Shown in pieces: positions 33,505-50,224 of a stretch of 52,658 bases of DNA. Source of the DNA: Planctomycetota bacterium (GTDB taxonomy: Bacteria; Planctomycetota; Planctomycetia; Gemmatales; Gemmataceae); NCBI GenBank assembly GCA_021413735.1, contig JAIOPV010000168.1, forward strand, positions 1 through 52,658, in the 5' to 3' direction. The position numbers and the translations under genes are program-made. The number at the start of each line of letters is the position of its first letter. The first letter of the stretch is position 1. The notes under the pieces are model-generated. The model saw nothing but the letters and a program-made list of their open reading frames with translations, was not told the DNA's origin and ran no database searches.

Positions 33505-36318
33505 TCATGGAGTCGCCTTCGATTCGATTTCGCAGGTTGGAAGTGCCGATTTGAGCTTGGCAAGCCCGTTGTCGGAGATCGTCGTGCCGACCAGTTGCAG
33601 GCGAGTGAGTCCTTTTAACTGCCCGAGGCGTTCGACGGCGTCGTCACCGAGACGCTTCCCGGTGAGGGTCAACGCTTTCAACGCGGGCAACTTCTCCAGG
33701 TGCCGAATTGATTGCGTGTCGGAAACCGATGCCTCCAGGGAGAGCTCTTGCAATTTGCTGAGTCCGCCAACCTCTGACAGAAGTGCATCCCCGTGACTGT
33801 ACGGGCCAACGGTCAGGTGTGTCAGTGTGCGGAGCCGGCCGACGTACTTCGCGAGTTCCTCGCCTGCCCGGGCGGTTCTCATTCGAAGATGGGTCAACCC
33901 CGATAATCTAACGGCCCACGCGAGGTGTTCGCCCGTGAACCAGGGGATATCATCGAATGTGAGTCCGTCGACGCGGAAGTTCGCGGCTGGGAGGTCGTCG
34001 CCGCGAGTAACCGGCTTCGTCTCGGTGCCGACCGCAACTTCGAGGGCCGCACCATTCCGCAGAAGAATCTCGGCCGCAGCTCGTTCGTCAGCGTCGGGAA
34101 GTTCGGAGGGAATCGGCTCGGCAGCGACGCGAAAACCCGTCCGATCCGCGGGCACGTGCGGCGGCTCCGAGTGCCCTCGCGAAGCCGAACGCCCGTCTGC
34201 CACACCCCAGGTGTAACTCGCGCCGCGAACGCTCCTCCTCGTTTCCTTCCCCTTCCAGGTCAGCGGATTCAGTCGATCCTCCTCACGATAACTCTGCTCG
34301 TAGGAATCCAACACCCACTCATCAACGTTGCCGATCATGTCGTGCAAGCCGAACGGGTTCGCTGGGTATTCCCCGACCTGGGTCGGTTCGGATAACCCGA
34401 CCAGTGAAGTTCTCGCGTCCTCTTTGCGGACCTTGTCGCCCGTGTAGTACGCTGTGGTGGTGCCTCCGCGGATCGCCCGCTCCCACTCGGCGTCGGAGGC
34501 GAGGCGGTAGATACGCGAGTCCTTGCGACTGAGCCAGAGGCAAAACGCGATGGCGTCGTCCCAGTTCACGCAGACCACCGGGTGCCGGTCCGTTTGTTCC
34601 CAGCGGGGCTCACGCCAGGTGTAGCCGCCCTTCGACTGAAAGCTGTTGCCCGCAGTGTTCAGGCGGAAGGCATAGCTACCGGGGCGTTCCGCGAAGGTGC
34701 GGTACCCGCTGGCGTCCGTGAAGCGGCGGAACTCACCCACAGTGACTTCATACTGCCCGAGATAGAACGGCTGACTGATCCGGACCTTGCGTTGTGGCCC
34801 TTCGTCTGCTTTGCGTCCTGGTTCCGTGCTGGGCGATCCCTGTGTGAACGTGCCTTCCGGGATCAACACTATTCCCATCCCGACGCTGTTCTCGAACACC
34901 TTTCGGCGTGCCAACTTCTCGGCCTGGGCAACATCATCGCTCGGCGGCATGCCTGATTCGGATTGCTGCGGAGTTGGTGGCGGCTGTGAGACGATCGCGA
35001 AAGCGGCGGCCGCAACCGCGACGCAAGCGATTCCTGCCACCACTCGTCGCGGCCACCGACGAGATCGCCTCGAAAGGGGCAACAGGTTGACGTTCACCAG
35101 TGTCGTACTCGACGACGCTTTCGCCGCATCCGGCCCGAGGTTCGCGGCAATCGCGTCGAGGGCCTCCACGACCTGATGCGTCGATTCGAACCGGTCCGCG
35201 GGAGCCTTCTGGAGCAATCGGAGGACAACCTCGCCGAGTTCCGCCGGGATCGCCGTGTCGAGGCTATCGGGTGATGGCGGCGTGTGATCGAGAATGCGGC
35301 GGAACGTCCCGAGCTTGCTGCGGTCCCGAAACGGGTTGATGCCGACCAGCATTTCATACAGGACGCAACCGAGGGCGAACTGGTCCGCTTGAAGATCGAC
35401 GTGCTTGCTGGAGCGGACCTGCTCCGGTGCCATGTACGCGGGGGTGCCCATCACGGCCCGCGTCACCGTCAGCCCGGCGCCAACATCGGTGATGCGTGCG
35501 AGGCCAAAGTCGATCAACTTTGCCTGGTCCGAACCCGCGACCAGCCAGATGTTACTCGGCTTCACATCCCGGTGAACTAGCCCTGCATCGTGCGCCGCTG
35601 CCAAGCCCGAAGCCACTTGCCTGGCCACTCGCACGGCCCTGGCAATCGACAGCCGCTTCTCGCGGTCCATCCGATCCTGAAGGTTTTCCCCTTTCAAGAG
35701 GGCCATACACAGGTAGAGAACCCCGCGATCATCACCGACATCGTGAACGGTGACGACGTGCTCCGAGTCAAGCGTGGCCAGCGCACGCGCCTCGCGGACG
35801 AACCGGGCACGTGCGACCGGATCGAACGAGCGGGCATCGGTCATGACCTTCAGTGCGACTGTCCGCCGGAGGTTCACGTCCTCGGCTCGGAACACGGTTC
35901 CCATGCCGCCCGCGCCGAGTTGTTCAAAGATTCGGTACTTCCCAAGACGTCCCAACTCACCCGGCCCCTCGGCAGGGGAGAGAAACGAGTAGTCCTCGGG
36001 GGTTAAAACGCGAGCGTTCTGCTGGGGTGGGGCTTCCGTTCTTGTGGCATCTTCTCCCGCGACTTGCTCGACCTCGATGGCGACGGTTTCACCGAGAGGG
36101 GGCGGTGGCTCTGGAGCGTGCGTGGCCGTCGCCCGATCCCACTCGTTCGACGGCGGAGCGGCAAGGTGATCCCCGGTCAGGGTGGGCAAGCCCTCGGGAA
36201 CGAACACCGCCGTCCTGGGTTCGCCGTCGAGCGTGGCCCCGCACTGTGGGCAGTTCTCACCCATCTCGACCGCTCCTGGCGAGTAGCGGCAGGACTGACA
36301 GCAGCGTTCACTTGCCAT
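33505..36318 (-). CDS. Ser/Thr protein kinase with zinc ribbon, SUMF1-like and leucine-rich-repeat domains
   Basis: A 937-residue membrane kinase; ATG 36318 was chosen because the upstream extension to 36444 is compositionally unlike a protein. Residues 5-30 are a zinc-ribbon-like CQSC/CPQC pair. A Hanks-type kinase spans about 128-392 (glycine loop GAGGMG, Lys157, catalytic HRDVKPSN at about 249, DFG at 270, APE at about 297). A transmembrane helix lies at about 424-443. The exported half has a SUMF1/formylglycine-generating-enzyme-like domain (about 477-720: MGIVLIPEGTFTQGS; GQYEVTVGEFRRF; DMIGNVDEWVLD) and then leucine-rich repeats (about 770-930). The RGASYTWGVADGRS segment lacks the catalytic cysteines of true FGE, so this domain probably binds rather than oxidises. 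Confidence 0.92.
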   Translation of the reverse strand: MASERCCQSCRYSPGAVEMGENCPQCGATLDGEPRTAVFVPEGLPTLTGDHLAAPPSNEWDRATATHAPEPPPPLGETVAIEVEQVAGEDATRTEAPPQQNARVLTPEDYSFLSPAEGPGELGRLGKYRIFEQLGAGGMGTVFRAEDVNLRRTVALKVMTDARSFDPVARARFVREARALATLDSEHVVTVHDVGDDRGVLYLCMALLKGENLQDRMDREKRLSIARAVRVARQVASGLAAAHDAGLVHRDVKPSNIWLVAGSDQAKLIDFGLARITDVGAGLTVTRAVMGTPAYMAPEQVRSSKHVDLQADQFALGCVLYEMLVGINPFRDRSKLGTFRRILDHTPPSPDSLDTAIPAELGEVVLRLLQKAPADRFESTHQVVEALDAIAANLGPDAAKASSSTTLVNVNLLPLSRRSRRWPRRVVAGIACVAVAAAAFAIVSQPPPTPQQSESGMPPSDDVAQAEKLARRKVFENSVGMGIVLIPEGTFTQGSPSTEPGRKADEGPQRKVRISQPFYLGQYEVTVGEFRRFTDASGYRTFAERPGSYAFRLNTAGNSFQSKGGYTWREPRWEQTDRHPVVCVNWDDAIAFCLWLSRKDSRIYRLASDAEWERAIRGGTTTAYYTGDKVRKEDARTSLVGLSEPTQVGEYPANPFGLHDMIGNVDEWVLDSYEQSYREEDRLNPLTWKGKETRRSVRGASYTWGVADGRSASRGHSEPPHVPADRTGFRVAAEPIPSELPDADERAAAEILLRNGAALEVAVGTETKPVTRGDDLPAANFRVDGLTFDDIPWFTGEHLAWAVRLSGLTHLRMRTARAGEELAKYVGRLRTLTHLTVGPYSHGDALLSEVGGLSKLQELSLEASVSDTQSIRHLEKLPALKALTLTGKRLGDDAVERLGQLKGLTRLQLVGTTISDNGLAKLKSALPTCEIESKATP

Positions 36319-36344
36319 GTGACTCTCACGCTTCCTGACGCCCG

Positions 36345-39300
36345 TTACGGGGCTCTCGTTGCCGGGGTCCGGGGAAGTGGTGCCTGTTCCACGATCCGCA
36401 GAATGTGAACCAATCCGTCCGGCCCGGCCACAACAAGGTGACACCCATCCGGGGCGAACTCCATCGCATTTATCACGCGATCCGCAGTTGCAAGGCGGAT
36501 GACGCGAGGATTGGGATCGAGACCGGCCTTGCCCTTCATGAGCGTCCAGACGCGAACGGTACCATCGGGGCCGGCTGTGGCCAAGAGCCGACCGTCGGAA
36601 CGAACCCGCATTGCGTTGATTGGGCTCGGGGTCCGAACGACAACCCCCGGTTGGCCCTCTGCACTCCAGAACCTGAGCGTGCTATCGGCGCTGGAACTGA
36701 CAATCTCACCCGAGGGGAGAATTGCCACGGAGGAAATCACCGGAGGGGCGCTTCCATTATCGTATGCCTGCATCACCCGGGGAGTCCCACCCGCCAAAGG
36801 CCAGACGCGGACGGTCCCGTCGCTGCCGCCGGTTGCCAGGATTGTTCCGTCCGAATTATAAGCCACGCCGAATACCTGTCCGACGTGACCAACCAACAGG
36901 CGAGACATTGGTGATTTCGTCGACGGCCACCCAGGAAAATTGAGTGATTCCGGCGCCAATCTTACGGGCGGGGTGAAGATGCCGATGTGGCCTGCGGAAT
37001 CGGACGCGGCGAATGATTCCCCGTCCGGGGACGTCGCGACCGACAGGGGTGTTGCCAGACTTCCCCACTCCCCAACAGGTCGCTGGGTTGTGATGTCCCT
37101 GAGTCGAAAGATGCTATCCCGTCCGACGCTGAGGAACGCCTTTCCATCCGCCAGGAAGGCGAGCCCTGCAGCGATCCCACGATGCCCCGGATACTCCCTG
37201 CCTCGACCGTCCACTGGGTTCCAAAGCCGCACCCTACCGAAGCCATCCGCAGATGCGACCGATTTGCCATCCCCTGAGACAGCAAGTCGGAAGATTGATG
37301 CGTTGTGGCCCTCCATCAACTTTGGCTTCTTGTCGGGAGAAGTCACATCATATATCCAAAGGACCCGGTCTGGCCCTCCCCCTCCGATGATCTGCTTCCC
37401 GTCCGGGCTCAGGCAGTAAGTGACGAAGCCCGTCCGAGATACCAGTTCGACTTGTGATTCTCGCATGCCGTCCTTCGCTCGCCAGCGGACGGCGAACTGC
37501 GGCGCTGCAGGATCGGTCAGTTCGTGCTTCGCGGTCCAAAGTGATGCCCCGTCCGGGGTGAACGCCAGCAAGCCTACGCCGGGCGTGTTTGACTGCCAGA
37601 TCCGGGTGGTCTTCGTGAGGTCGTCCCCGATACGCCAGACCACGGTCCCTCGTTCTGTTCCACCCGCCAGGAATTGCTTGTCGGGGCTCAGCGTCAGGAA
37701 GAGACGCATAGTTGGCTCGGCGGGGTGTGTCAGGGTGTGCAGCAACTGCCCCGTCGCAACGGACAAGAACCGCACCTTCGCATCGGAACACCCAACCGCG
37801 AGGACTTCCCCACCGTTCAAGAATGCGACACCTCCCGCACCAACGGGCACGTCAAACTGACGCTGCTTCCCGGATTTGAGGTCGATCAAATTGATCTCAC
37901 CCTTTGGCAAAATGACCGAGGTCGCCAGGTACTTTCCGTCAGGGCTGAGCGCTGTCCTCCATGTCAATCCCGATGTATCGAAGCGTTGTTTCTCCCGCCC
38001 GGTTTCCACATCCCAGAGGCGAATGGTCCTGTCGTGACCGACGGACACGATCATGTCAGCCGTCGGATTAAACCGGACACTGCAGCACTGTGCGCGGTGC
38101 CCAACGAACCGGCGGACGAGGTTTCCCGTTCTTGCGTCGAAGAGAAACAAGTCGCTTCCGCTAACCGAGATGTAGAGCCTCCCGTCGGGGCTGAAATCGC
38201 CAAGTTCGGCGTTACCCGTCACTCGGTAGCGAGTTCCCCCCAATAACGCGACCGTTTCTGGAGGGACCTCACTCCCATCCGCTTTCATCGCAGCGACCCA
38301 GGGCTTCGGGAGAGCATCCGGACCGAACGTCGGCGACAGTGGCGGCTCAACGACAACCGGCGGTGCGATTGGAGTGCTTGGAATCGGTTGCAAGTTCGCA
38401 CCCGTTGCCACGGTCAACGGCCGGAAGGTCGTCGCCAGCGGAGACTGTGAGGTGTTCACCGCACACAAGCCCACTCGGACGCGATCAGGGGCCGCCCAGG
38501 TCACTGCGGGGAAGATCTGTTCGATCACTCCGCTGGCCTGTGTCGTCTGGATTCCCACAGTGGCCCGCCACTCGGCTCCGCGACGCGACAACCGAAGCGA
38601 GACAGATTTCGTATCGTCAGGGAGGATACGACCTTCGTTCGTGGCAGTGCGGAGGTGGTGGAGCACGCGATAAGAAACGTAACCACGGCGAGGTGCCCCT
38701 GGGCGGTAAACACGTTCCAACCGGATCCACTTCTCTGGACCGATGCTCACGAGGATTCCCGCGCTGCGGTAGCCGGAATTGGGGGGCTGTTCATTGTCGG
38801 GCACTCCGATCAGGTCTTCGACCACCGGCAGTGTGATGTCAAAATCGCCCTCGACAGGCTGGAGCACTCGCGGTGAGTTCACCGTGCCATGCTCGTTCAG
38901 ATCGAAGTTTCCGCCTGGAAGCGTGAACGTGAGACCCCTGGGCGATGGTGTGATGGAGACCTTGCTCGTCGGATTGATGACCTGACCCCAGTTTGGGATG
39001 TCGGTGGCCGGCGTGGGCGTTGAATTGAGCAACTGAATCCGACCGTCCCGTCGCGCGGCAGCGACCCTGGTCCCGTCGGGAGAGCGTGCCAGACGGTGAA
39101 TGGGTTGCCCCAACTCCCAGTGACGCAGTGGGTCGCCCGTCTCAACATCCCACTCGATCACCCGGCCATCCCAGCCACCAGTGAACAGTCGCTTGTTGCC
39201 TGAAAGGAACACCGCTCCGCTCACTTCCCCGGTGTGTCCGTAAAGCGTGTGCCGCTCGGTGCCTGTGCGAAGATCCCAAATCTTCACTGTTCCATTCGCA

Positions 39301-41075
39301 CTGGCTGAGGCCAATGTGTTGTCGTCGTCCGAGACGGCAAGCCACCATAGGCGGGGTTGCCCTGTCTTGATGCGAGAATTCACCTCATTGCGAGTGTAGT
39401 CCCAAACGAGAACCTCGCCGGACGGCACCCCGACGAGGAGAGTCTTGTTGTCTGACAGGTAGGCCAGTGCCGTGTCGCCCCCCGGAAGGCCCCGGAGAAT
39501 GGCGATTTCTATGCCCGTCTCCAGATTCCAAACCCGAATCGTCGAGTCGAAACTTCCCGATGCCGCTGTCTTCCCATCAGGGGATACTGCCAAACTCAAA
39601 ACCAGTTGGGTGTGCCCACGCAAGGTCCAGCGCTCTTGGCCGCTCTCGCTGTCCCAGACTTTCACGGTTCCGTCGAAGGCGGCGCTGACAAACGTTTTAC
39701 CCCCAGCGGCGAAACCGAGACCGTTAACCTGTCCGGTGTGGGCGATTAGGTTTCGACGGAGTTCGCCAGTTGTTGCATCCCAGATTTTGATTGCCCCGTC
39801 CTTTCCCCCACTCACAAGGGTGGCCCCGTCGGGAGAGAAAGTAAGCCCGGCGGCTTGTTCAACGTGGCTCGTCTTGTTGTTGCCGATCACTTCGAGCGGT
39901 TTGGGAACTGCAGGTCGGGTGGGCGTTGGTTGCGGTGTGGTCGGCTGGGCCGGCTGCACGGGGTTGACTGCCGGTTCGGCCTCAGCTGTGAGAACGGGTT
40001 GCGGCTTGTCGTTGAACTGCACAACGCCGGCGACCCCAACGGAAGCGAGAAGCAACACGGTCAGGGCCGCCAAACGCTTCCTCGCACGAGTTCGGCGGGG
40101 GCGCCGCAACCGCGGCGAACGTCCTTCTGCGATTGCGGTCAGTATCCGATCGACTTCGGCGGCTGACTTCGGTCGGTCGTTGGGCTTCTTCTCCATCAGC
40201 CATTCGACTAATTCACCAAACGCCGGAGGCAAGTCCGGCCGAAGCACGTGGATCGGCGTCGGAACGTGATCGACGGCAGCCAACATCGCCGAGACAATGT
40301 CCTCCCCTTGGAACGGCACCTCACCGGTGGCCGCTCGGTAGAGGACGCACCCCAAGCTGAACAGGTCGCTGCGTGGATTGACACTCTCTTCCTGAGCCTG
40401 TTCGGGCGACAGGTAGCCGGGTGTGCCGACGAGTTGAGCGGTCACCGCAGCCGCCGTCTGGGAGTCGTCCCACTGCACGAGCCCGTAATCCAGCAACCGG
40501 ACGCACCGCGTAGGAATCGTGCAATTCGGGTCGGCGACCTCGGTATCGCCTTCGAGTGAAGTGGACGAGCGTTCCTCGTCGAGCATCAAGTTGGCCGGCT
40601 TGACGTCGCGGTGAATCAGGCCGACTCCGTGAAGCGCGACCAGGGCCCGCGCGGCCCCCTGCCCGACATGCAACAACTCGGGAAGGTTGAGTTTTCCGAC
40701 CCGCTTCAATCGGGCTTCCAGCGACTCCCCCCGGATCAATTCCATGACCGTGTACAGGGTTCCACTCGTCAGGCCGAACGAGTGAATTGCGACAAGGTTC
40801 TCGTGACCAACCCCGCGCAACAGCCCACTCTGGCGAACAAATCGTTCTCGGGTTACGGGGTCGTTTGTGAGCGACGGCCTGAGGACTTTGACCGCAACGG
40901 GAGCGCCGGAGTCGTGCGCCTCGGCTGCGAACACCACTCCGGTACCACCGCTTCCGAGAACGGAAAGCAATCGAAACCCGGCGAGGCGCCCGAATTCCCC
41001 TTCGCTGGTGGGAGGTTCCAAAGTGGGCAGCACTTCAGCCAGCGCGTCGACTTTGGCGGTGGACGAGAAAGTCAT
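36345..41075 (-). CDS. Giant membrane Ser/Thr kinase with 21 WD40 repeats
   Basis: A 1576-residue kinase. The Hanks-type kinase spans about 33-315: glycine loop GSGGTG, Lys63, HRDVKPAN (155-162), then DYG at 196-198 where DFG is usual, and SPE in the activation loop. A Pro/Arg-rich linker follows, with a transmembrane helix at about 335-352. The exported part starts with seven WD40 repeats (AGLTFSPDGATLVSGGKDG ... IKIWD onward), then a beta-rich domain of about 190 residues resembling a lectin-like sandwich (FTLPGGNFDLNEHG; VSLRLSRRGAEWRATVG), then fourteen more WD40 repeats. The total of 21 fits three seven-bladed propellers. ATG 41075 has only weak SD; the frame is open to 41636. An AT-rich stretch at 41110-41190 could hold the promoter. 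The next gene follows after 26 bp. Confidence 0.93.
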   Translation of the reverse strand: MTFSSTAKVDALAEVLPTLEPPTSEGEFGRLAGFRLLSVLGSGGTGVVFAAEAHDSGAPVAVKVLRPSLTNDPVTRERFVRQSGLLRGVGHENLVAIHSFGLTSGTLYTVMELIRGESLEARLKRVGKLNLPELLHVGQGAARALVALHGVGLIHRDVKPANLMLDEERSSTSLEGDTEVADPNCTIPTRCVRLLDYGLVQWDDSQTAAAVTAQLVGTPGYLSPEQAQEESVNPRSDLFSLGCVLYRAATGEVPFQGEDIVSAMLAAVDHVPTPIHVLRPDLPPAFGELVEWLMEKKPNDRPKSAAEVDRILTAIAEGRSPRLRRPRRTRARKRLAALTVLLLASVGVAGVVQFNDKPQPVLTAEAEPAVNPVQPAQPTTPQPTPTRPAVPKPLEVIGNNKTSHVEQAAGLTFSPDGATLVSGGKDGAIKIWDATTGELRRNLIAHTGQVNGLGFAAGGKTFVSAAFDGTVKVWDSESGQERWTLRGHTQLVLSLAVSPDGKTAASGSFDSTIRVWNLETGIEIAILRGLPGGDTALAYLSDNKTLLVGVPSGEVLVWDYTRNEVNSRIKTGQPRLWWLAVSDDDNTLASASANGTVKIWDLRTGTERHTLYGHTGEVSGAVFLSGNKRLFTGGWDGRVIEWDVETGDPLRHWELGQPIHRLARSPDGTRVAAARRDGRIQLLNSTPTPATDIPNWGQVINPTSKVSITPSPRGLTFTLPGGNFDLNEHGTVNSPRVLQPVEGDFDITLPVVEDLIGVPDNEQPPNSGYRSAGILVSIGPEKWIRLERVYRPGAPRRGYVSYRVLHHLRTATNEGRILPDDTKSVSLRLSRRGAEWRATVGIQTTQASGVIEQIFPAVTWAAPDRVRVGLCAVNTSQSPLATTFRPLTVATGANLQPIPSTPIAPPVVVEPPLSPTFGPDALPKPWVAAMKADGSEVPPETVALLGGTRYRVTGNAELGDFSPDGRLYISVSGSDLFLFDARTGNLVRRFVGHRAQCCSVRFNPTADMIVSVGHDRTIRLWDVETGREKQRFDTSGLTWRTALSPDGKYLATSVILPKGEINLIDLKSGKQRQFDVPVGAGGVAFLNGGEVLAVGCSDAKVRFLSVATGQLLHTLTHPAEPTMRLFLTLSPDKQFLAGGTERGTVVWRIGDDLTKTTRIWQSNTPGVGLLAFTPDGASLWTAKHELTDPAAPQFAVRWRAKDGMRESQVELVSRTGFVTYCLSPDGKQIIGGGGPDRVLWIYDVTSPDKKPKLMEGHNASIFRLAVSGDGKSVASADGFGRVRLWNPVDGRGREYPGHRGIAAGLAFLADGKAFLSVGRDSIFRLRDITTQRPVGEWGSLATPLSVATSPDGESFAASDSAGHIGIFTPPVRLAPESLNFPGWPSTKSPMSRLLVGHVGQVFGVAYNSDGTILATGGSDGTVRVWPLAGGTPRVMQAYDNGSAPPVISSVAILPSGEIVSSSADSTLRFWSAEGQPGVVVRTPSPINAMRVRSDGRLLATAGPDGTVRVWTLMKGKAGLDPNPRVIRLATADRVINAMEFAPDGCHLVVAGPDGLVHILRIVEQAPLPRTPATRAP

Positions 41076-41185
41076 GTCGATTCTTGCCGAAGATCGCGGA
41101 CTATTGAGGCTTTTAATCCTAGTTGAGCGTCGCGGATCGAGCAAGCGTTCCGTGTTTGGTCTATTATTCGTTTTTAAATTAATCA

Positions 41186-41438
41186 CTACCTTGAGTTGAT
41201 GCAGATCAAATCGTTGTCGCCAAAGTCGTATGGGTACCGAAACTTCTTGACACTCCTCATAACGGGGGATTGCGCCGAGGCGTCGTAGCAGGCTCTCGCG
41301 AGACCGCAAAGCCATTCCTGGTTTTTGAGGTCTGAAGGACCGAGCTCCCTCAGCCCAGGCCACTGGCCTGGGATCGGTGGACACGGCCCAATATTTCATC
41401 GCAGCGAAAATCTCTCGTCCCAGCCGTTTGGCATTCAT
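41186..41438 (-). pseudogene. Possible frameshifted small gene upstream of the WD40 kinase
   Basis: ATG 41438 has GAAGGAG 8 nt upstream and opens MNAKRLGREIFAAMKYWAVS. Within a perfect 8-bp palindrome at about 41354-41372 (CCCAGGCC/GGCCTGGG) the good-looking frame shifts by +1. It continues with LKNQEWLCGLARACYDASAQ, then VKKFRYPYDFGDNDLICINS, and a TAG at 41186-41188. The total of 253 nt is one base more than a multiple of three. Codon third positions are G/C-rich in both halves. It may be a broken gene, a sequencing error, or chance. No homologue is known to me. Confidence 0.3.
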
Positions 41439-41482
41439 CAACGACACTCCTTCCCTTATCCTTCTGGGTAGGAGGTCTGCGT

Positions 41483-43501
41483 ATGAGTACCGTTGCCGAG
41501 TCGCTGCCCGCTGCTGAGCACACACACCCTGTGCGGAAGATCGAGAACGTTCCAGGCCGGCTCGGCTCACATGCCGCGAATATGGTGCGTGCTCGCATTG
41601 CGATGCCCTGGCGACGACGACTCGCGAAAGCCGCACTGTACATCCCCAAAGTTCGTTACTGGGAAGACCAGTTCATCGGCCTGTCTGACGAGGGCATGCT
41701 GACGAAGAGCATGGAGCTGCGTGGCAAGGCACGCGGCAACTATGGACTCGATAAGCTGCTGCCGGAAGCGTTTGGGTTGGTCAGCGTTGCCATTCAGCGA
41801 GCGCTCGGCATCCGACCGTTCGACGTTCAGCTCGCGGGCGGTGCGGTTATCCACTTTGGCGGGTTGGTCGAACTCGCCACCGGTGAAGGCAAGACCGTCA
41901 CCGCGTCGCTGCCGACGTATCTGAACGCGCTCGTCGGCAAGGGCGTTCACGTCACCACGGTCAACGACTACCTCGCACAGCGCGACGCGGAATGGATCGG
42001 GCCGGTGTACACGAAACTCGGCCTCAGTGTCGGCTGTCTGTTCCAGAAGATGGAAGACGCTCCCCGGATCGAAGCATACCGTCGAGACGTGACCTACGGA
42101 ACCGCGGCCGAGTTCGGCTTCGACTTCCTGCGAGATCGCCTGAAGGTGCGAGGCGGACAAACAACCACAACGCCGTTCTGGACACCCTGGCTGCCTGGCG
42201 CGGGGGCTGCTCGCCTCGATCCGCGAGTTCAGCGTGCGCTACATTACGCGATCGTCGACGAAGCCGACAGCATCTTCATCGACGAAGCGAAAACGCCGCT
42301 GATTATTGCGAACCCCACCAGACTCGCCGAACCGGAAGAACGGCTCATCTATGAGTGGGCCGACAAGGTCGCCCGTGAACTCGTGCGGAACGAGCACTTC
42401 ACGCTCGACATGAAGAAGGACAAACTCGAACTGACCGACGCCGGCCGCAAGCAAGTGCGTTACTCCGACCCACCGAGCGGAAAGCACGCGAAGGCAATGG
42501 ACAAGATTCTCGATGCCGTCGAGAAGGCGCTTCAGGCTCACTACCGCTTCATTCGCGACCAGCAGTACATCATCAGCAGCGAGAACAAGATCGTTATCAT
42601 CGAGGAAGGCACCGGTCGGCCGATGCCCGACCGGCACTGGCGCGATGGGCTACACCAAGCGGTTGAAGCCAAGGAGAAGGTGCCGATCAACATGCCGAGC
42701 GAGCACGCGGCACAGATCACGTTCCAGAACTTCTACCGGCTGTACGGCAAACTCGGCGGCATGAGCGGAACGTTGATGCCGAACTTCTGGGAGATTCGGA
42801 AGGTGTATCGGCTCTGGACAACGAGCGGCCCCACGAACCGCCCGACGAAGCGAGTCGTTCTGCCCGACGAAGTGTATCCCACCGAAGACGCGAAGTTCGA
42901 CGCCGTCGTGAAGAAGACTCGCGAGATGTTGGTGTCGGGGCGTCCCGTGCTGATCGGCACCCGAACCGTCGACGCGAGCAAGAAGCTCTCGGCGAAACTG
43001 ACGGCTGGCGGTGTCACACATCAAGTGCTGAATGCCGAGCAGACGGAACGCGAAGCCGAGATTGTTTCCTTGGCGGGCCAGCCCGGTGCGGTGACAGTGG
43101 CGACGAACATGGCCGGCCGCGGAACCGACATCAAACTCGGGATCGGCGTTGCTGAGGCGGGTGGGTTGCACGTCATCGGCACGGAGCGTCACGAGGCCGA
43201 GCGAGTGGATCGACAGCTCATCGGGCGTGCCGGTCGGCAAGGCGACCCTGGAAGCGCACAGTTTTTGGTGTCGCTGGAAGATCAGTTACTCGAAGGGTTG
43301 GGCAATGCTCGACAGGCTGAACTGATGGCGTTCGGCAAACGCGGTGGCGATAAGAACTGGAATGCGTATGCGCCGTTGTTTCGCATGGCGCAGACGAAGA
43401 TCGAACGCCGCCATTATCGACAGCGTCTCGATCTGAAGAATCACGACAAGCATCGCCAGGAGATGCTCAAGGACATCGGCGCAGACCCGTATGTCGATTG
43501 A
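41483..43501 (+). CDS. SecA-like ATPase lacking the C-terminal scaffold and wing domains
   Basis: A 672-residue SecA-family motor; ordinary SecA has about 830-900 residues or more. It has NBD1 with Walker A ATGEGKT (132-138), TTVNDYLAQRDAEW and DEAD-like Walker B IVDEADSIFIDEAKTPLI, a preprotein-crosslinking domain (about 235-380) and NBD2 (VLIGTRTVDASKKLS; ATNMAGRGTDIKLG; GLHVIGTERHEAERVDRQLIGRAGRQGDPG). It ends 40 residues after the start of the usual helical scaffold (AQTKIERRHYRQ ...), so the two-helix finger, wing domain and zinc C-tail are missing. ATG 41483 has AGGAGG upstream. It may be a second, specialised SecA; the housekeeping SecA should be elsewhere. It is convergent with the next gene, 3 nt between stop codons. 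Confidence 0.9.
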   Translation: MSTVAESLPAAEHTHPVRKIENVPGRLGSHAANMVRARIAMPWRRRLAKAALYIPKVRYWEDQFIGLSDEGMLTKSMELRGKARGNYGLDKLLPEAFGLVSVAIQRALGIRPFDVQLAGGAVIHFGGLVELATGEGKTVTASLPTYLNALVGKGVHVTTVNDYLAQRDAEWIGPVYTKLGLSVGCLFQKMEDAPRIEAYRRDVTYGTAAEFGFDFLRDRLKVRGGQTTTTPFWTPWLPGAGAARLDPRVQRALHYAIVDEADSIFIDEAKTPLIIANPTRLAEPEERLIYEWADKVARELVRNEHFTLDMKKDKLELTDAGRKQVRYSDPPSGKHAKAMDKILDAVEKALQAHYRFIRDQQYIISSENKIVIIEEGTGRPMPDRHWRDGLHQAVEAKEKVPINMPSEHAAQITFQNFYRLYGKLGGMSGTLMPNFWEIRKVYRLWTTSGPTNRPTKRVVLPDEVYPTEDAKFDAVVKKTREMLVSGRPVLIGTRTVDASKKLSAKLTAGGVTHQVLNAEQTEREAEIVSLAGQPGAVTVATNMAGRGTDIKLGIGVAEAGGLHVIGTERHEAERVDRQLIGRAGRQGDPGSAQFLVSLEDQLLEGLGNARQAELMAFGKRGGDKNWNAYAPLFRMAQTKIERRHYRQRLDLKNHDKHRQEMLKDIGADPYVD

Positions 43502-44248: not shown

Positions 44249-45612
44249 ATGAACACACATTATCCCAATTCGACATCGCGCCGCGACTTCCTATTTCAGT
44301 CTGGCGGCGGGCTTGGCGGCATCGCTCTGAACTGGCTTTTGAGCCAGGAATCGCGGGGGGCTGACACAAAACTTCCGGCGTCGAAGAATCCGCTTGCAGC
44401 GAAGGCTCCCCACTTCGCGGCGAAGGCGAAGCGGGTCATCTTCATGTTCATGGTCGGCGGTCCGAGCCAGATGGATCTGTTCGACCCAAAGCCGGCTCTC
44501 GCCAAATGGGCGGGCAAACCACTTCCCGAAAGCACCGGCCGCCCGAAAAGTCAGTTCACGAGCGGCGGCGAAGTCGTCCTCCCGAGTACACGGAAATTCG
44601 CGAAGCACGGCAAGAGTGGCCTTGAGATATCCGATCTGCTACCGAACCTCGCAACGTGTGCCGACGATCTCTGTTTGCTGCGTTCGTGCTACGGAACCAG
44701 CACGATTCATGCTCCGGCGATCTACGAATTGCACAGCGGCCGCACGCTGATGGGCTTCCCGAGTCTGGGCAGTTGGGTCACTTATGGTCTGGGCAGCGTT
44801 AGCGAAAACCTGCCCGCGTACTGCGTGATGCCACAACCCGAGGGCGTGCCGGAAGGCGGTGCTCCGTGCTGGTCGGCGGCGTTCCTGCCTGCGGTGTATC
44901 AGGGCACGCTGCTGCGACGTGGGGCAAATCCGATTCAGAATCTGCGACCGCCGGCGGATGTCGGAGCCGACGAAAACCGTCGTTCGTTCGACCTCGTGAA
45001 CAAGCTGAATGCGTTGAACACTCCCGCGGGCGATTCGGAACTCGACGCTCGCGCTTCGAACTATGAGTTGGCGTTCCGGATGCAGCAGCACGCACCGGAA
45101 GCGGTCGATCTCTCGAGCTGGCACGTCGGCTGTTGGAACGCGGCGTGCGATTCGTGACGGTGTATTCGGGTGGCGGTCCGTTGGTGACGCAGTGGGACGC
45201 GCACGACGACGTGAACGCGAACCACGAGAAGATGTGCGGCCACGTCGACAAGCCGATTGCGGCGTTGCTGAAGGATTTGAAGCAGCGTGACATGCTGAAG
45301 GACACGCTGGTGGTGTGGTGTAGCGAGTTCGGCCGCACGCCGAACAGTCAGGGCGGCAAGGGTCGCGACCACAACCCGCTGGGGTACACGATGTGGCTGG
45401 CTGGCGGCGGCTCGAAGGGCGGCGTGGCTGTCGGCGAGACCGACGATTTCGGGCTGAAGACAGTGGGGAAGGCGACGTCGGTGAATGACTTCCACGCGAC
45501 GATCTTGCACCTACTGGGACTGGATCACGAGCAGTTGACGTACCTGCATTCGGGCCGCGACGAACGCCTTACCGACGTCGGCGGCTTCGTGGTCGATGAA
45601 GCCTTGGCGTGA
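44249..45612 (+). pseudogene. DUF1501 protein gene broken by internal deletion and frameshift
   Basis: The family is an exported planctomycete sulfatase-like/alkaline-phosphatase-fold protein. The first part (44249-45157) starts with a twin-arginine-like leader (SRRDFLFQSGGGLGGIALNW) and the family motifs RVIFMFMVGGPSQMDLFDPKP and SCYGTSTIHAPAIYELHSGR. After EAVDLS at about 45114 the frame turns to nonsense and stops at 45157. The normal text resumes in another frame at 45115 with [20 protein letters not shown] and runs through [23 protein letters not shown] to the stop at 45612. In intact members about 20-25 residues lie between these points, so about 60-75 bp are lost. The two halves (about 289 and 165 residues) sum to just under the usual 460-480 residues. 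Production of a functional protein is unlikely. Confidence 0.85.
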
Positions 45613-47418: not shown

Positions 47419-49281
47419 TCACGCATACTTGCGGGTGCCAGCGCGACGGCTCACGGTCACTACGAAGATCACCGTCAGCCCCAGCAGCGAACCCGCCACA
47501 ATTCCCACGAGCAAGAACGTCTCGTGCAAGCCGGCACGAATGCGGTCCGCGTCGCGATCCAACGGACGAATGATCTCCACGACGCCGCGAACCTCACCCA
47601 CCTTCCAGTCGAGCTTCGGGCTGTTCACGACATCCTTGTTGTGACAACCCAGACACGACTCCTTCAGCTTTCGAGCAATCGCGTAACGCAGCACTGGCCG
47701 GCCTTCGTATTCCTCGAACTGATACACCGGGTCGTCTGGCTTCTCGCGAAGTCGACTCAGGGCGTCACGTTCGAAGGCGTCCATCGGGGCGCGATTCGTG
47801 CGGAACTTCCAGGGGTAGTCGCTGTAGAGGCGAACTTGCATCCCGGATTCGCTGCGTTCGCTGATGTGCTTGCCGAGGTCGATGGTTAATGTCGCCGGCA
47901 GCGGCAGCGAGTCCTTCCGCGTGCTGTAATCGTAAGCCACCTTCGCGTGAGCGCGATCAACCGCCGCCGAGTAGAACTCGTTCAGGCTCTCCAAAGTCTC
48001 GGCTTGCTGTGCAGCCCCTTCAAGTGCGGTCGAACGCACCAGTCGCTCGTTCAGTCGCGACAGATGCCACAGCCCCACCGCTGAGCCAATCGTCAGCGCG
48101 ACCAGCACGCCGACCGGTCCGGGGTTGCGTCGGCACCACCGCCAGGAGCGTTCCACCCATCCAATCGGGCGAGCCTTGATCGGCAACCCATCGAGGAAGC
48201 GGCGAAGATCGTCGGCCAGTTCGCGGGCAGTGCCGTATCGACGTCCGGGAGCCTTCGCGAGCGCCTTGAGGCAAATCGTTTCGAGATCGCGGGGAATCTT
48301 GTCGTTGAGCCGTCGCGGGGCACGCGGTTCGTCCTGTAGCACTTGCAGCAACATCATTCGGCGATTGCCCTGGAAGGGGCGTTCGCGCGTCAGCAGTTCA
48401 TACAGGATCACGCCAAGGCTGTAGACATCGGTGCGTGCATCGACGCTATGCGATTCGCCGCGGGCCTGTTCCGGTGACATATACGCGGGCGTGCCGAGAA
48501 CCTCGCCTTCCGAGGTCATCGTGACGTCGTCGGCTTCCCGTTTCGCGAGGCCGAAGTCGGTAATGTGCGGCTTGCTGTCAGAGTCGAGGAGAATGTTCGA
48601 CGGTTTCACATCGCGGTGAACGATACCGAGTCTGTGGGCCGCTTCGAGGCTGTCGGCGACTTCGGCGATCAGTCTCGCGGCAGATTGCGGATCGAAGGGG
48701 CGTTCTTCGAGACGTTCCGCGAGCGTCTTGCCGCGAATCAACTCGGCGACGATGTAGCACACACCCTCGGGAGTCTGCCCGGCTTCGTAAAGCGAGACAA
48801 TTCCCGGATGCTTGAGCTGTGCGGCGCTGCGGGCTTCGCGAAGGAAGCGTTCCGTTTCGCCTGCACCCGCCAGCCGACCGGAACGCAGAATCTTCACGGC
48901 CACATCGCGTTCGAGTTCTTTGTCGAACGCGCGAAACACCGTGCCGAACGAGCCGCGGCCGAGTTCTTCGCACAGTTCGAACTTGCCGACCTGTCGCGGT
49001 GGCTCGCCGGCGAATCCGATGATCGGCACGCACGAATCGAGCGCACCTTGGGCGGCTGTCATCAGCGCGGCGGGAACCTCCACACTGCTCGGACCCATCG
49101 GCTGACGCAACGCAGTGACCAGAGCATCGGTGTGCGCTTCGAGCGTTCGCAATGTCGCTTCGCAATGTGGGCAGTGTTCGACATGATCCGCAACGCGAGA
49201 AAATGCGATCGCATCCAGATCGCCAACGGCGAACCGGGAGAGGTCGTCCTGGTCTGGGCAGGTTGTGTTCCGCACGATCAC
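47419..49281 (-). CDS. Transmembrane Ser/Thr kinase with anti-sigma-type zinc motif and heme-c-type (DUF3365) sensor
   Basis: A 620-residue kinase with three fused parts. Residues 21-45 contain H33-x3-C37-x2-C40, the zinc-binding anti-sigma (ZAS/zf-HC2) motif. A Hanks-type kinase spans about 98-365 (glycine loop GRGSFG, Lys130, HRDVKPSN at about 222, DFG at 242). TM1 is at about 388-408. The exported sensor (about 415-587) resembles the DUF3365 family (ESLNEFYSAAV; YSDYPWKFRTNRAP; FERDALSRLREKP) and holds CLGCH at 543-547, a covalent c-type heme motif. TM2 is at about 589-611 with a short cytoplasmic tail. GTG 49281 is used; GTG 49275 with GGAG is an alternative. It is divergent from an ECF sigma factor 138 bp away, its likely regulatory target. 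Confidence 0.92.
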   Translation of the reverse strand: MIVRNTTCPDQDDLSRFAVGDLDAIAFSRVADHVEHCPHCEATLRTLEAHTDALVTALRQPMGPSSVEVPAALMTAAQGALDSCVPIIGFAGEPPRQVGKFELCEELGRGSFGTVFRAFDKELERDVAVKILRSGRLAGAGETERFLREARSAAQLKHPGIVSLYEAGQTPEGVCYIVAELIRGKTLAERLEERPFDPQSAARLIAEVADSLEAAHRLGIVHRDVKPSNILLDSDSKPHITDFGLAKREADDVTMTSEGEVLGTPAYMSPEQARGESHSVDARTDVYSLGVILYELLTRERPFQGNRRMMLLQVLQDEPRAPRRLNDKIPRDLETICLKALAKAPGRRYGTARELADDLRRFLDGLPIKARPIGWVERSWRWCRRNPGPVGVLVALTIGSAVGLWHLSRLNERLVRSTALEGAAQQAETLESLNEFYSAAVDRAHAKVAYDYSTRKDSLPLPATLTIDLGKHISERSESGMQVRLYSDYPWKFRTNRAPMDAFERDALSRLREKPDDPVYQFEEYEGRPVLRYAIARKLKESCLGCHNKDVVNSPKLDWKVGEVRGVVEIIRPLDRDADRIRAGLHETFLLVGIVAGSLLGLTVIFVVTVSRRAGTRKYA

Positions 49282-49419
49282 TCCGCGACGCGAGGCGGGA
49301 GCAGAGGCGTCACCATTCTAACGATATGGCGTTACACAGTGGTTCTTCATCGACATTGCTCCAACCGTGGCGCACACTGTAACGAAGCCTCCCCATTGCT
49401 GTCCGCTGCCGGGCACGCC

Positions 49420-50043
49420 ATGAAGAACGCGAGAACCATCAACGGGAACGATCAAGCCTCTGAGATGGGCACGCACCGGAGCCTGCTCGACGGAGCACGC
49501 GCCCGAGATGCTGCCGCATGGGAACGACTCGTTACGCTGTACGCGCCGCTCGTGTTGTCGTGGTGCCGGGGTTGGGGGCTGAAGCCGGACGATGCCGCCG
49601 ATGTGTTTCAAGAAGTGTTCCAGTCCGTTGCGACTCACCTCGATGGCTTCCGTCGCGAACGACCCAGCGACACGTTCCGCGGTTGGCTCCGCACGATCAC
49701 TCGCAACAAAGTGAACGATCACTTCCGACGCAGAGAGAAGGAACCAGCCGGTGTGGGTGGCAGCGAAGCCCGCGATCTGCTGGCCCAGGTGCCCGGAGCG
49801 TTGCCTACTGACGAGGTTGTCGTTGCGGACGAAGCGGAAGGAGCGTTGCTGCATCGGGCGCTGGAGTTGCTTCGCGCCGAGTTCGAGCCGAAGACCTGGC
49901 AGGCGTTCTGGCAGACAGCGGTTGAAGGGCGAGCCGCAACGGACGTGGCAGCGGATTTGTCGATGAGTCCGGGTGCGGTGCGAGTGGCGAAGTCTCGAGT
50001 TCTCCACCGTCTCCGCACGGATTTGGGCGAGTTGCTGGATTAA
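49420..50043 (+). CDS. ECF-family RNA polymerase sigma factor (partner of heme-motif kinase)
   Basis: A 207-residue ECF sigma factor. Region 2 covers about 20-95 (WERLVTLYAPLVLSWCRGWG; DAADVFQEVFQSVATHL, the DAxDxxQE-type helix; RGWLRTITRNKVNDHFRR). Region 4 covers about 140-200 (WQAFWQTAVEGRAATDVAAD and MSPGAVRVAKSRVLHRLR). ATG 49420 is used; ATG 49465 is possible and neither has a strong SD. The frame continues upstream to 48565 but overlaps the kinase gene and is a shadow. Divergence from a kinase with a zinc anti-sigma motif suggests a sigma/kinase pair: the kinase may bind and phosphorylate this factor. Confidence 0.9.
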   Translation: MKNARTINGNDQASEMGTHRSLLDGARARDAAAWERLVTLYAPLVLSWCRGWGLKPDDAADVFQEVFQSVATHLDGFRRERPSDTFRGWLRTITRNKVNDHFRRREKEPAGVGGSEARDLLAQVPGALPTDEVVVADEAEGALLHRALELLRAEFEPKTWQAFWQTAVEGRAATDVAADLSMSPGAVRVAKSRVLHRLRTDLGELLD

Positions 50044-50160: not shown

Positions 50161-50224
50161 AAACGTTTCGAGTTGACACCAGAGTCTCCGTTGTGCGGAG
50201 GTCCAGTGTCAACTCGAAACGTTT
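50161..50224. terminator. Bidirectional terminator-like inverted repeat
   Basis: Perfect 19-bp arms at 50161-50179 and 50206-50224 (AAACGTTTCGAGTTGACAC and complement) surround a loop with a second stem CTCCG/CGGAG. It lies 118 nt after the sigma-factor stop and 21 nt before the stop of the convergent gene at 50245. A run of A upstream (50157-50163) gives a U-run for the minus-strand transcript. The function as a terminator is inferred. Confidence 0.7.

Follow-up and report, generated by a model that had tools for sequence, protein, structure and literature searches.

A predicted haem-c sensor kinase with a zinc anti-sigma-like domain, encoded divergently from an ECF sigma factor in a Gemmataceae genome

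We analysed a 52,658-nucleotide contig (JAIOPV010000168.1, called the window here) from the 9.8-Mb draft genome of a Planctomycetota bacterium of the family Gemmataceae (assembly GCA_021413735.1), in which genes for a protein kinase and an extracytoplasmic function (ECF) sigma factor lie back to back. An initial annotation made from the letters alone had placed this pair at 47419..50043 and had listed a zinc motif, a Hanks kinase, two membrane helices and a DUF3365-like sensor with CLGCH as parts of the kinase protein. The coordinates proved correct, and the list was borne out by Pfam, motifs and hydropathy (Table 1). The kinase gene has a GTG start and encodes 620 aa. The best start of the sigma factor gene is an ATG consistent with the N-termini of its orthologues.

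Table 1. Features of the divergent kinase/sigma factor locus and exported-protein genes at related loci
Feature	Position	Strand	Basis
Gene for zinc domain/Hanks kinase/sCache_heme protein	47419..49281	-	Open reading frame, Pfam
Class I (zinc) anti-sigma-like domain, residues 1-85	49027..49281	-	PDB profile matches, model, conservation
Putative zinc ligands C8, H33, C37, C40	within 49162-49260	-	Motif, conservation
Hanks-type kinase, residues 102-352 (K130, E149, D224, N229, D242 kept)	48226..48978	-	Pfam, conservation
First membrane segment, residues 389-408	48058..48117	-	Hydropathy >1.6, modest peak 1.71
Extracytoplasmic Tll0287/sCache_heme sensor, residues 409-583	47533..48057	-	Pfam
CLGCH, predicted covalent c-haem motif, residues 543-547	47641..47655	-	Conserved CxxCH
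Second membrane segment, residues 584-612	47446..47532	-	Hydropathy >1.6, peak 2.68
Operator-like TGTAAC-N7-CGTT / TAACG-N6-CGTTA, upstream of kinase gene	49319..49336	-	Pattern conservation
TCGACA-N17-CACACT, sigma70-like promoter candidate for sigma gene	49350..49378	+	Pattern conservation
ECF sigma factor gene, 207 aa	49420..50043	+	Pfam, NCBIfam, orthologue N-termini
Exported-protein genes	L094:5766-7292, L092:1584-3113, L093:6051-7589, L007:3496-4614 (cut), L095:5784-7310, L097:4764-6299		

The kinase domain matched Pkinase in Pfam with an E value of 5.1e-51 and has the fold, catalytic lysine, HRD and DFG of a Hanks-type Ser/Thr kinase. Across 91 aligned homologue rows, K130, D224 and N229 were invariant and D242 was conserved at 0.989. 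Because hydrophobic segments flank the sensor, its CLGCH side would lie outside the membrane, provided that the kinase is cytoplasmic. The sensor itself (residues 415-573) matched the Tll0287-like family (formerly DUF3365, PF11845) with an E value of 6.9e-17 and 62.7 bits against a cut-off of 24.1, and it has the conserved CxxCH in a Cache fold that marks sCache_heme proteins. This family has been described as a haem-c Cache domain, with nitric oxide (NO) sensor properties in one member of the signalling type (PMC12889525). The initial annotation had made its haem proposal depend on conservation of CxxCH in sensor homologues and on cytochrome c maturation genes in the genome, and we found both: CxxCH was kept in 119/119 homologues among the matches listed, and genes of the ResB/CcsA type were present. 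This conservation rejects chance as the origin of CxxCH; C543, C546 and H547 were invariant in the 91 rows. A covalent c-haem at CLGCH is supported, as a prediction from sequence.

The N-terminal domain of the kinase carries its H-x3-C-x2-C motif as HVEHCPHC (residues 33-40), with Cys8 upstream. Among the matches listed, 91 of the 119 homologues had C-x24-H-x3-C-x2-C within their first 110 residues; of the other 28, 18 fell below 560 aa in length, and one of the longer ones had the motif further in. C37 and C40 were invariant in the 91 rows, with H33 at 0.989 and C8 at 0.967, and the conservation of both the zinc motif and CxxCH was well above chance. A profile of the domain searched against the PDB matched the anti-sigma factors DdvA, ChrR, RsiW and RslA. 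Structure comparison of the domain model gave mostly anti-sigma structures, at weak Foldseek E values (best, 0.15). The domain thus has the Hx3Cx2C motif with upstream ligand and, as modelled, the helical fold of class I zinc anti-sigma factors, which are encoded beside their own ECF genes, as were seven of eight zinc-bearing orthologues. The zinc motif is short by itself, but the profile and model matches support the anti-sigma reading, which with the ECF association is firmer than the initial annotation could claim. Profile, model, conservation and ECF association together reject a chance motif. We infer that the domain binds and inhibits the divergent sigma factor.

The adjacent, divergent gene was confirmed to encode an ECF sigma factor, with sigma2 and sigma4 only. 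It matched Sigma70_r2 in Pfam over the cut-off (8.4e-14), with region 4 sub-threshold, and TIGR02937 (sigma70-ECF) in NCBIfam over the cut-off (63.3 bits, residues 18-185), and the divergent partner is conserved in orthologues. Sigma2.2 reads D[AT]AD in 7/7 partner sigma factors, so that two acidic residues are retained. The ECF43-type replacement of DAED (STTA in EcfP) was not found, and we rejected an intrinsically inactive ECF43-type sigma on this motif.

To see how far the pair extends, as the initial annotation had proposed, we examined 15 kinase-sensor proteins in detail, window included, chosen from the matches listed across 102 genomes of the order. Eight carried the zinc domain, and seven of these eight, again counting the window, had a divergent ECF gene. 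The six best non-self sigma matches in the order (64-74% identical) were the partners of zinc-bearing kinases. Contig sizes give a supporting hint only: 20 of 120 kinase-homologue contigs were size-matched in the sigma-homologue list (119/120 rows), compared with a mean of 1.2 and a maximum of 3 in shifted controls. The six zinc-less proteins with a visible N-terminus had no ECF match in the stretches fetched, and the seventh, L102, was cut by a contig end. Of the six, L098 shows a short HNLSCPAC close to its N-terminus, missed by the zinc query. A second arrangement was seen at L185:1-1730, where a kinase/sCache_heme frame, its N-terminus off the contig and a low-complexity insert in its sensor, overlaps a same-strand ECF gene.

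The initial annotation had set the pair among kinase-linked ECF factors and had singled it out for its haem motif. The pair is real, but the locus is not unique: this genome and related ones have many ECF genes with a zinc-motif kinase as neighbour. In the genome itself, 9 of 12 ECF paralogues examined (the four weakest matches, L145-L148, were left out) adjoin a kinase with an N-terminal HxxxCxxC. The exceptions are L163, which adjoins a kinase without HxxxCxxC; L165, with such a kinase at 794 bp; and L161, with no kinase match near the ECF paralogue. The L163 kinase (L163:5821-9213) has an N-terminus resembling the zinc domain without its ligands, perhaps a zinc-free anti-sigma version. At 20 loci of other genomes, holding 21 ECF genes, 14 adjoin a zinc-motif kinase, 2 a kinase in which no zinc domain was detected (L187 and the truncated L185), and 1 a lone zinc-domain frame (L199); the remaining 4 had none, several of them near a contig end. 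As a control, we took 22 kinases in 20 loci from the listed kinase matches. Both zinc-motif kinases had an adjacent ECF gene, while 1 of the 20 without the motif had an ECF-like match within 600 bp (Fisher, 0.013); two of the matches taken already aligned from residue 6, so the sampling was not independent of the zinc domain. Across 29 pairs with a recognisable motif, sigma distances correlated with zinc-domain distances at r 0.72 and with kinase distances at 0.52 (0.68 and 0.31 with a single haem representative kept), values inflated by shared ancestry. These other Gemmataceae pairs share with the window pair the N-terminal motif, the kinase placement and a related adjacent ECF gene. In place of a haem sensor, however, their C-termini look WD40-, TPR-, LRR- or FGE-like by eye, and those of the same genome have both genes on one strand, whereas the window pair is divergent. 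Thus, among ECF-linked relatives the C-terminus varies while the zinc domain stays.

These data are best explained if the protein is an anti-sigma factor anchored in the membrane, with kinase and c-haem sensor in the same chain, that controls the divergent ECF sigma factor; we give this explanation a probability of roughly 55%. Computation supports the domain assignments, the site for covalent haem, the presence of genes for haem attachment, the anti-sigma fold and the conserved pairing of zinc domain with ECF gene; what we infer is that sigma is bound, that NO is the signal, which way the switch works and which component is phosphorylated. At rest, the cytoplasmic zinc domain would hold the sigma factor at the membrane, while the C-terminal sensor outside it, between the two helices, would attach a c-haem covalently at CLGCH. 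NO binding at the haem, most likely, or otherwise a change in its redox state, would shift the flanking helices and so alter kinase activity in the cytoplasm. The kinase would then phosphorylate either the sigma factor or part of its own chain (zinc domain or linker), freeing or activating the sigma factor. The overall interpretation of the initial annotation is partly supported: the parts, the haem site and the conserved divergent partner are borne out, and its proposal that haem ligation or redox state changes the kinase, which releases or phosphorylates the sigma factor, stands as a hypothesis in which the kinase may act on the sigma factor, on itself or on another target. A bolder statement would be that one chain carries a signal from beyond the membrane to RNA polymerase by way of a periplasmic c-haem sensor for NO (or redox), a kinase, and an anti-sigma domain releasing its sigma factor once phosphorylated, and that the planctomycete ECF factors now ascribed to phosphorylation control with no anti-sigma factor are in fact governed by kinases that double as anti-sigma factors and take interchangeable C-terminal inputs. 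We hold this tentatively, at a little under even odds.

Several observations weigh against the anti-sigma explanation. Foldseek gave no match at E <= 0.001 for the zinc-domain or sensor models, and a search of the PDB with the single sensor sequence did not find true relatives. In the own-genome set (nine pairs) the order of the correlations was reversed, with sigma-zinc at 0.25 (257/2000 shuffles as high) and sigma-kinase at 0.37 (14/2000). No zinc domain was seen in 7 of the 15 kinase-sensor proteins; therefore, the sensor kinase exists also without this output. The zinc-bearing orthologue L096 had no ECF match in the available 3.8 kb upstream. NO specificity is based on a single Pseudomonas protein. 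Finally, in the available part of PMC8999054, three studied ECF-kinase cases activate sigma by phosphorylating it instead.

It is possible, though rather unlikely, that the sensor responds to redox state or serves in electron transfer, with no role in sensing NO. Stand-alone sCache_heme members behave as redox proteins, whereas members fused to signalling domains are of the NO-binding type (preprint, PMC12889525). An extra cysteine about 115 residues before CxxCH, found in 61 of 119 close kinase homologues among the matches listed, could be a second redox or ligand residue; however, the window sensor has serine at this position and no cysteine outside CxxCH. Nor does the extra cysteine align with that of the CQxEAP stand-alone proteins (column 73 versus column 118), and we dropped the idea that it is the axial cysteine of those members.

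We consider it unlikely that the kinase activates sigma by phosphorylation, as PknT does EcfP, with the zinc domain as a docking site and not an inhibitor. The accessible portion of PMC8999054 describes EcfP phosphorylated in sigma2.2 and predicts phosphorylation activation for six ECF groups, planctomycete ones included, on the basis of a neighbouring kinase gene. However, EcfP lacks DAED and has STTA instead, whereas the partner sigma factors here retain the acidic motif, and the model of the zinc domain has an anti-sigma fold. Phosphorylation activation and anti-sigma inhibition can coexist.

Two further alternatives are both improbable. The zinc domain might itself be a redox switch, as in ChrR or RsrA, with the haem sensor and kinase serving a separate pathway; from what is available of PMC7406223, some zinc anti-sigma domains do sense redox directly and others do not, but about half of the membrane-bound class I factors retain the motif, suggesting a structural role, and a constant zinc domain with a variable C-terminus fits a fixed sigma-binding part with exchangeable input. 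The zinc motif and ECF gene might instead be incidental to an ordinary haem-sensing kinase with other targets, as L096 and the zinc-less proteins without a nearby ECF match would allow, but the zinc ligands are near-invariant and the motif and ECF gene co-occur.

Two patterns are conserved between the divergent genes. TCGACA-N17-CA[CA]ACT precedes the sigma gene in 6/7 divergent pairs, and in 8/8 orthologues the kinase gene has [TC]GTAAC-N7-CGTT upstream, at a distance of 22-132 bp. An N7-type spacing is too short for an ECF promoter; we therefore rejected TGTAAC-N7-CGTT as an AAC/CGT promoter and call it operator-like. In the own genome, neither the plain pattern (11 sites versus 12 for a reversed-pattern control) nor the palindrome TAACG-N6-CGTTA (4 versus 7) was enriched. 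A form chosen after inspection and counted by eye, TGTAACGC-N5-CGTT, occurs at 20 sites across the 8 kinase-bearing genomes, against 9 sites across 22 other genomes. G094 accounts for 4 of the 9, and two of its four are a single palindrome counted once per strand, apparently in a repeat. In three genomes, genes for CxxCH proteins with a signal-like N-terminus also have the motif in front of them (L247, L238, L237); the own-genome CxxCH protein has sub-threshold squalene-hopene-cyclase-like matches. An exported protein of ~508 aa, its N-terminus by eye twin-arginine-like, is encoded directly downstream of the kinase in 6/8 orthologues. Its gene is not beside the window kinase, but the genome has a 50% relative at C168:66344-67885, with the operator-like motif 65 bp before its start. 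Two members scanned had no Pfam match at 0.01, and the best NCBIfam match, EboA (0.059), was far under cut-off. Shared regulation of kinase, exported-protein and CxxCH-protein genes through TGTAACGC-N5-CGTT (window 49319-49336; L167, L247, L238, L237, L235, L242) is a candidate lead.

Elsewhere in the window, two further Hanks kinases lie at 36345-41636(-), with WD40 propellers and no HxxxCxxC in its first 400 residues, and at 33505-36444(-), with FGE-sulfatase/LRR parts. A DUF1501 gene at 44249-45612(+) is split across two overlapping reading frames (profile positions 1-210 and 241-389), and a long terminator-like inverted repeat (GTTTCGAGTTGACAC...GTGTCAACTCGAAAC) at 50165-50221 separates the sigma gene from the convergent 50245-52245 gene.

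If the proposed control is true, a single chain would link gas or redox sensing directly to transcription. Because most adjacent kinases here carry the anti-sigma-like motif, the proposal also offers a testable answer to how planctomycete kinase-linked ECF factors are restrained, and if those groups resemble the pairs described here, the premise of phosphorylation control without an anti-sigma factor needs revision. The modular set, with a constant N-terminal motif and kinase, varied C-termini and an adjacent ECF gene, provides many natural comparisons. We found no report of a kinase, zinc anti-sigma domain and haem in one protein among the literature matches listed, with most subscription papers outside coverage.

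Three known systems share parts of this arrangement. Zinc class I anti-sigma factors (ChrR, RsiW, RslA, DdvA) share the Cys8/His33/Cys37/Cys40 pattern, helical fold and adjacent partner ECF gene; here the domain is fused to a kinase, and sigma binding is predicted. To our knowledge, none of those four is a kinase. In PMC7406223, helix 1 of the anti-sigma domain lies on sigma4 and its helix 4 on sigma2. Kinase-linked ECF factors (ECF43 EcfP-PknT and EcfK-PknS; ECF59, 61, 62 and 217), as far as the available part of PMC8999054 describes them, likewise have the ECF gene beside a Hanks kinase, planctomycete groups included, but here sigma2.2 is not of the STTA type and the kinase has its own anti-sigma-like domain. 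The sCache_heme signalling proteins (DUF3365/Tll0287, PF11845; Deshpande et al. 2026 preprint, PMC12889525) resemble the window protein in coupling a signalling output to a haem-c Cache domain that bears CxxCH and sits between membrane helices, a likeness we assessed by profile, model and conservation. The outputs named there are histidine kinases, methyl-accepting chemotaxis proteins, GGDEF/EAL domains and cyclases, with no anti-sigma output among them, and 'serine', 'sigma' and 'planctomycet' are absent from the main text; in the window protein, the sensor is preceded by an anti-sigma-like domain and then a Hanks kinase.
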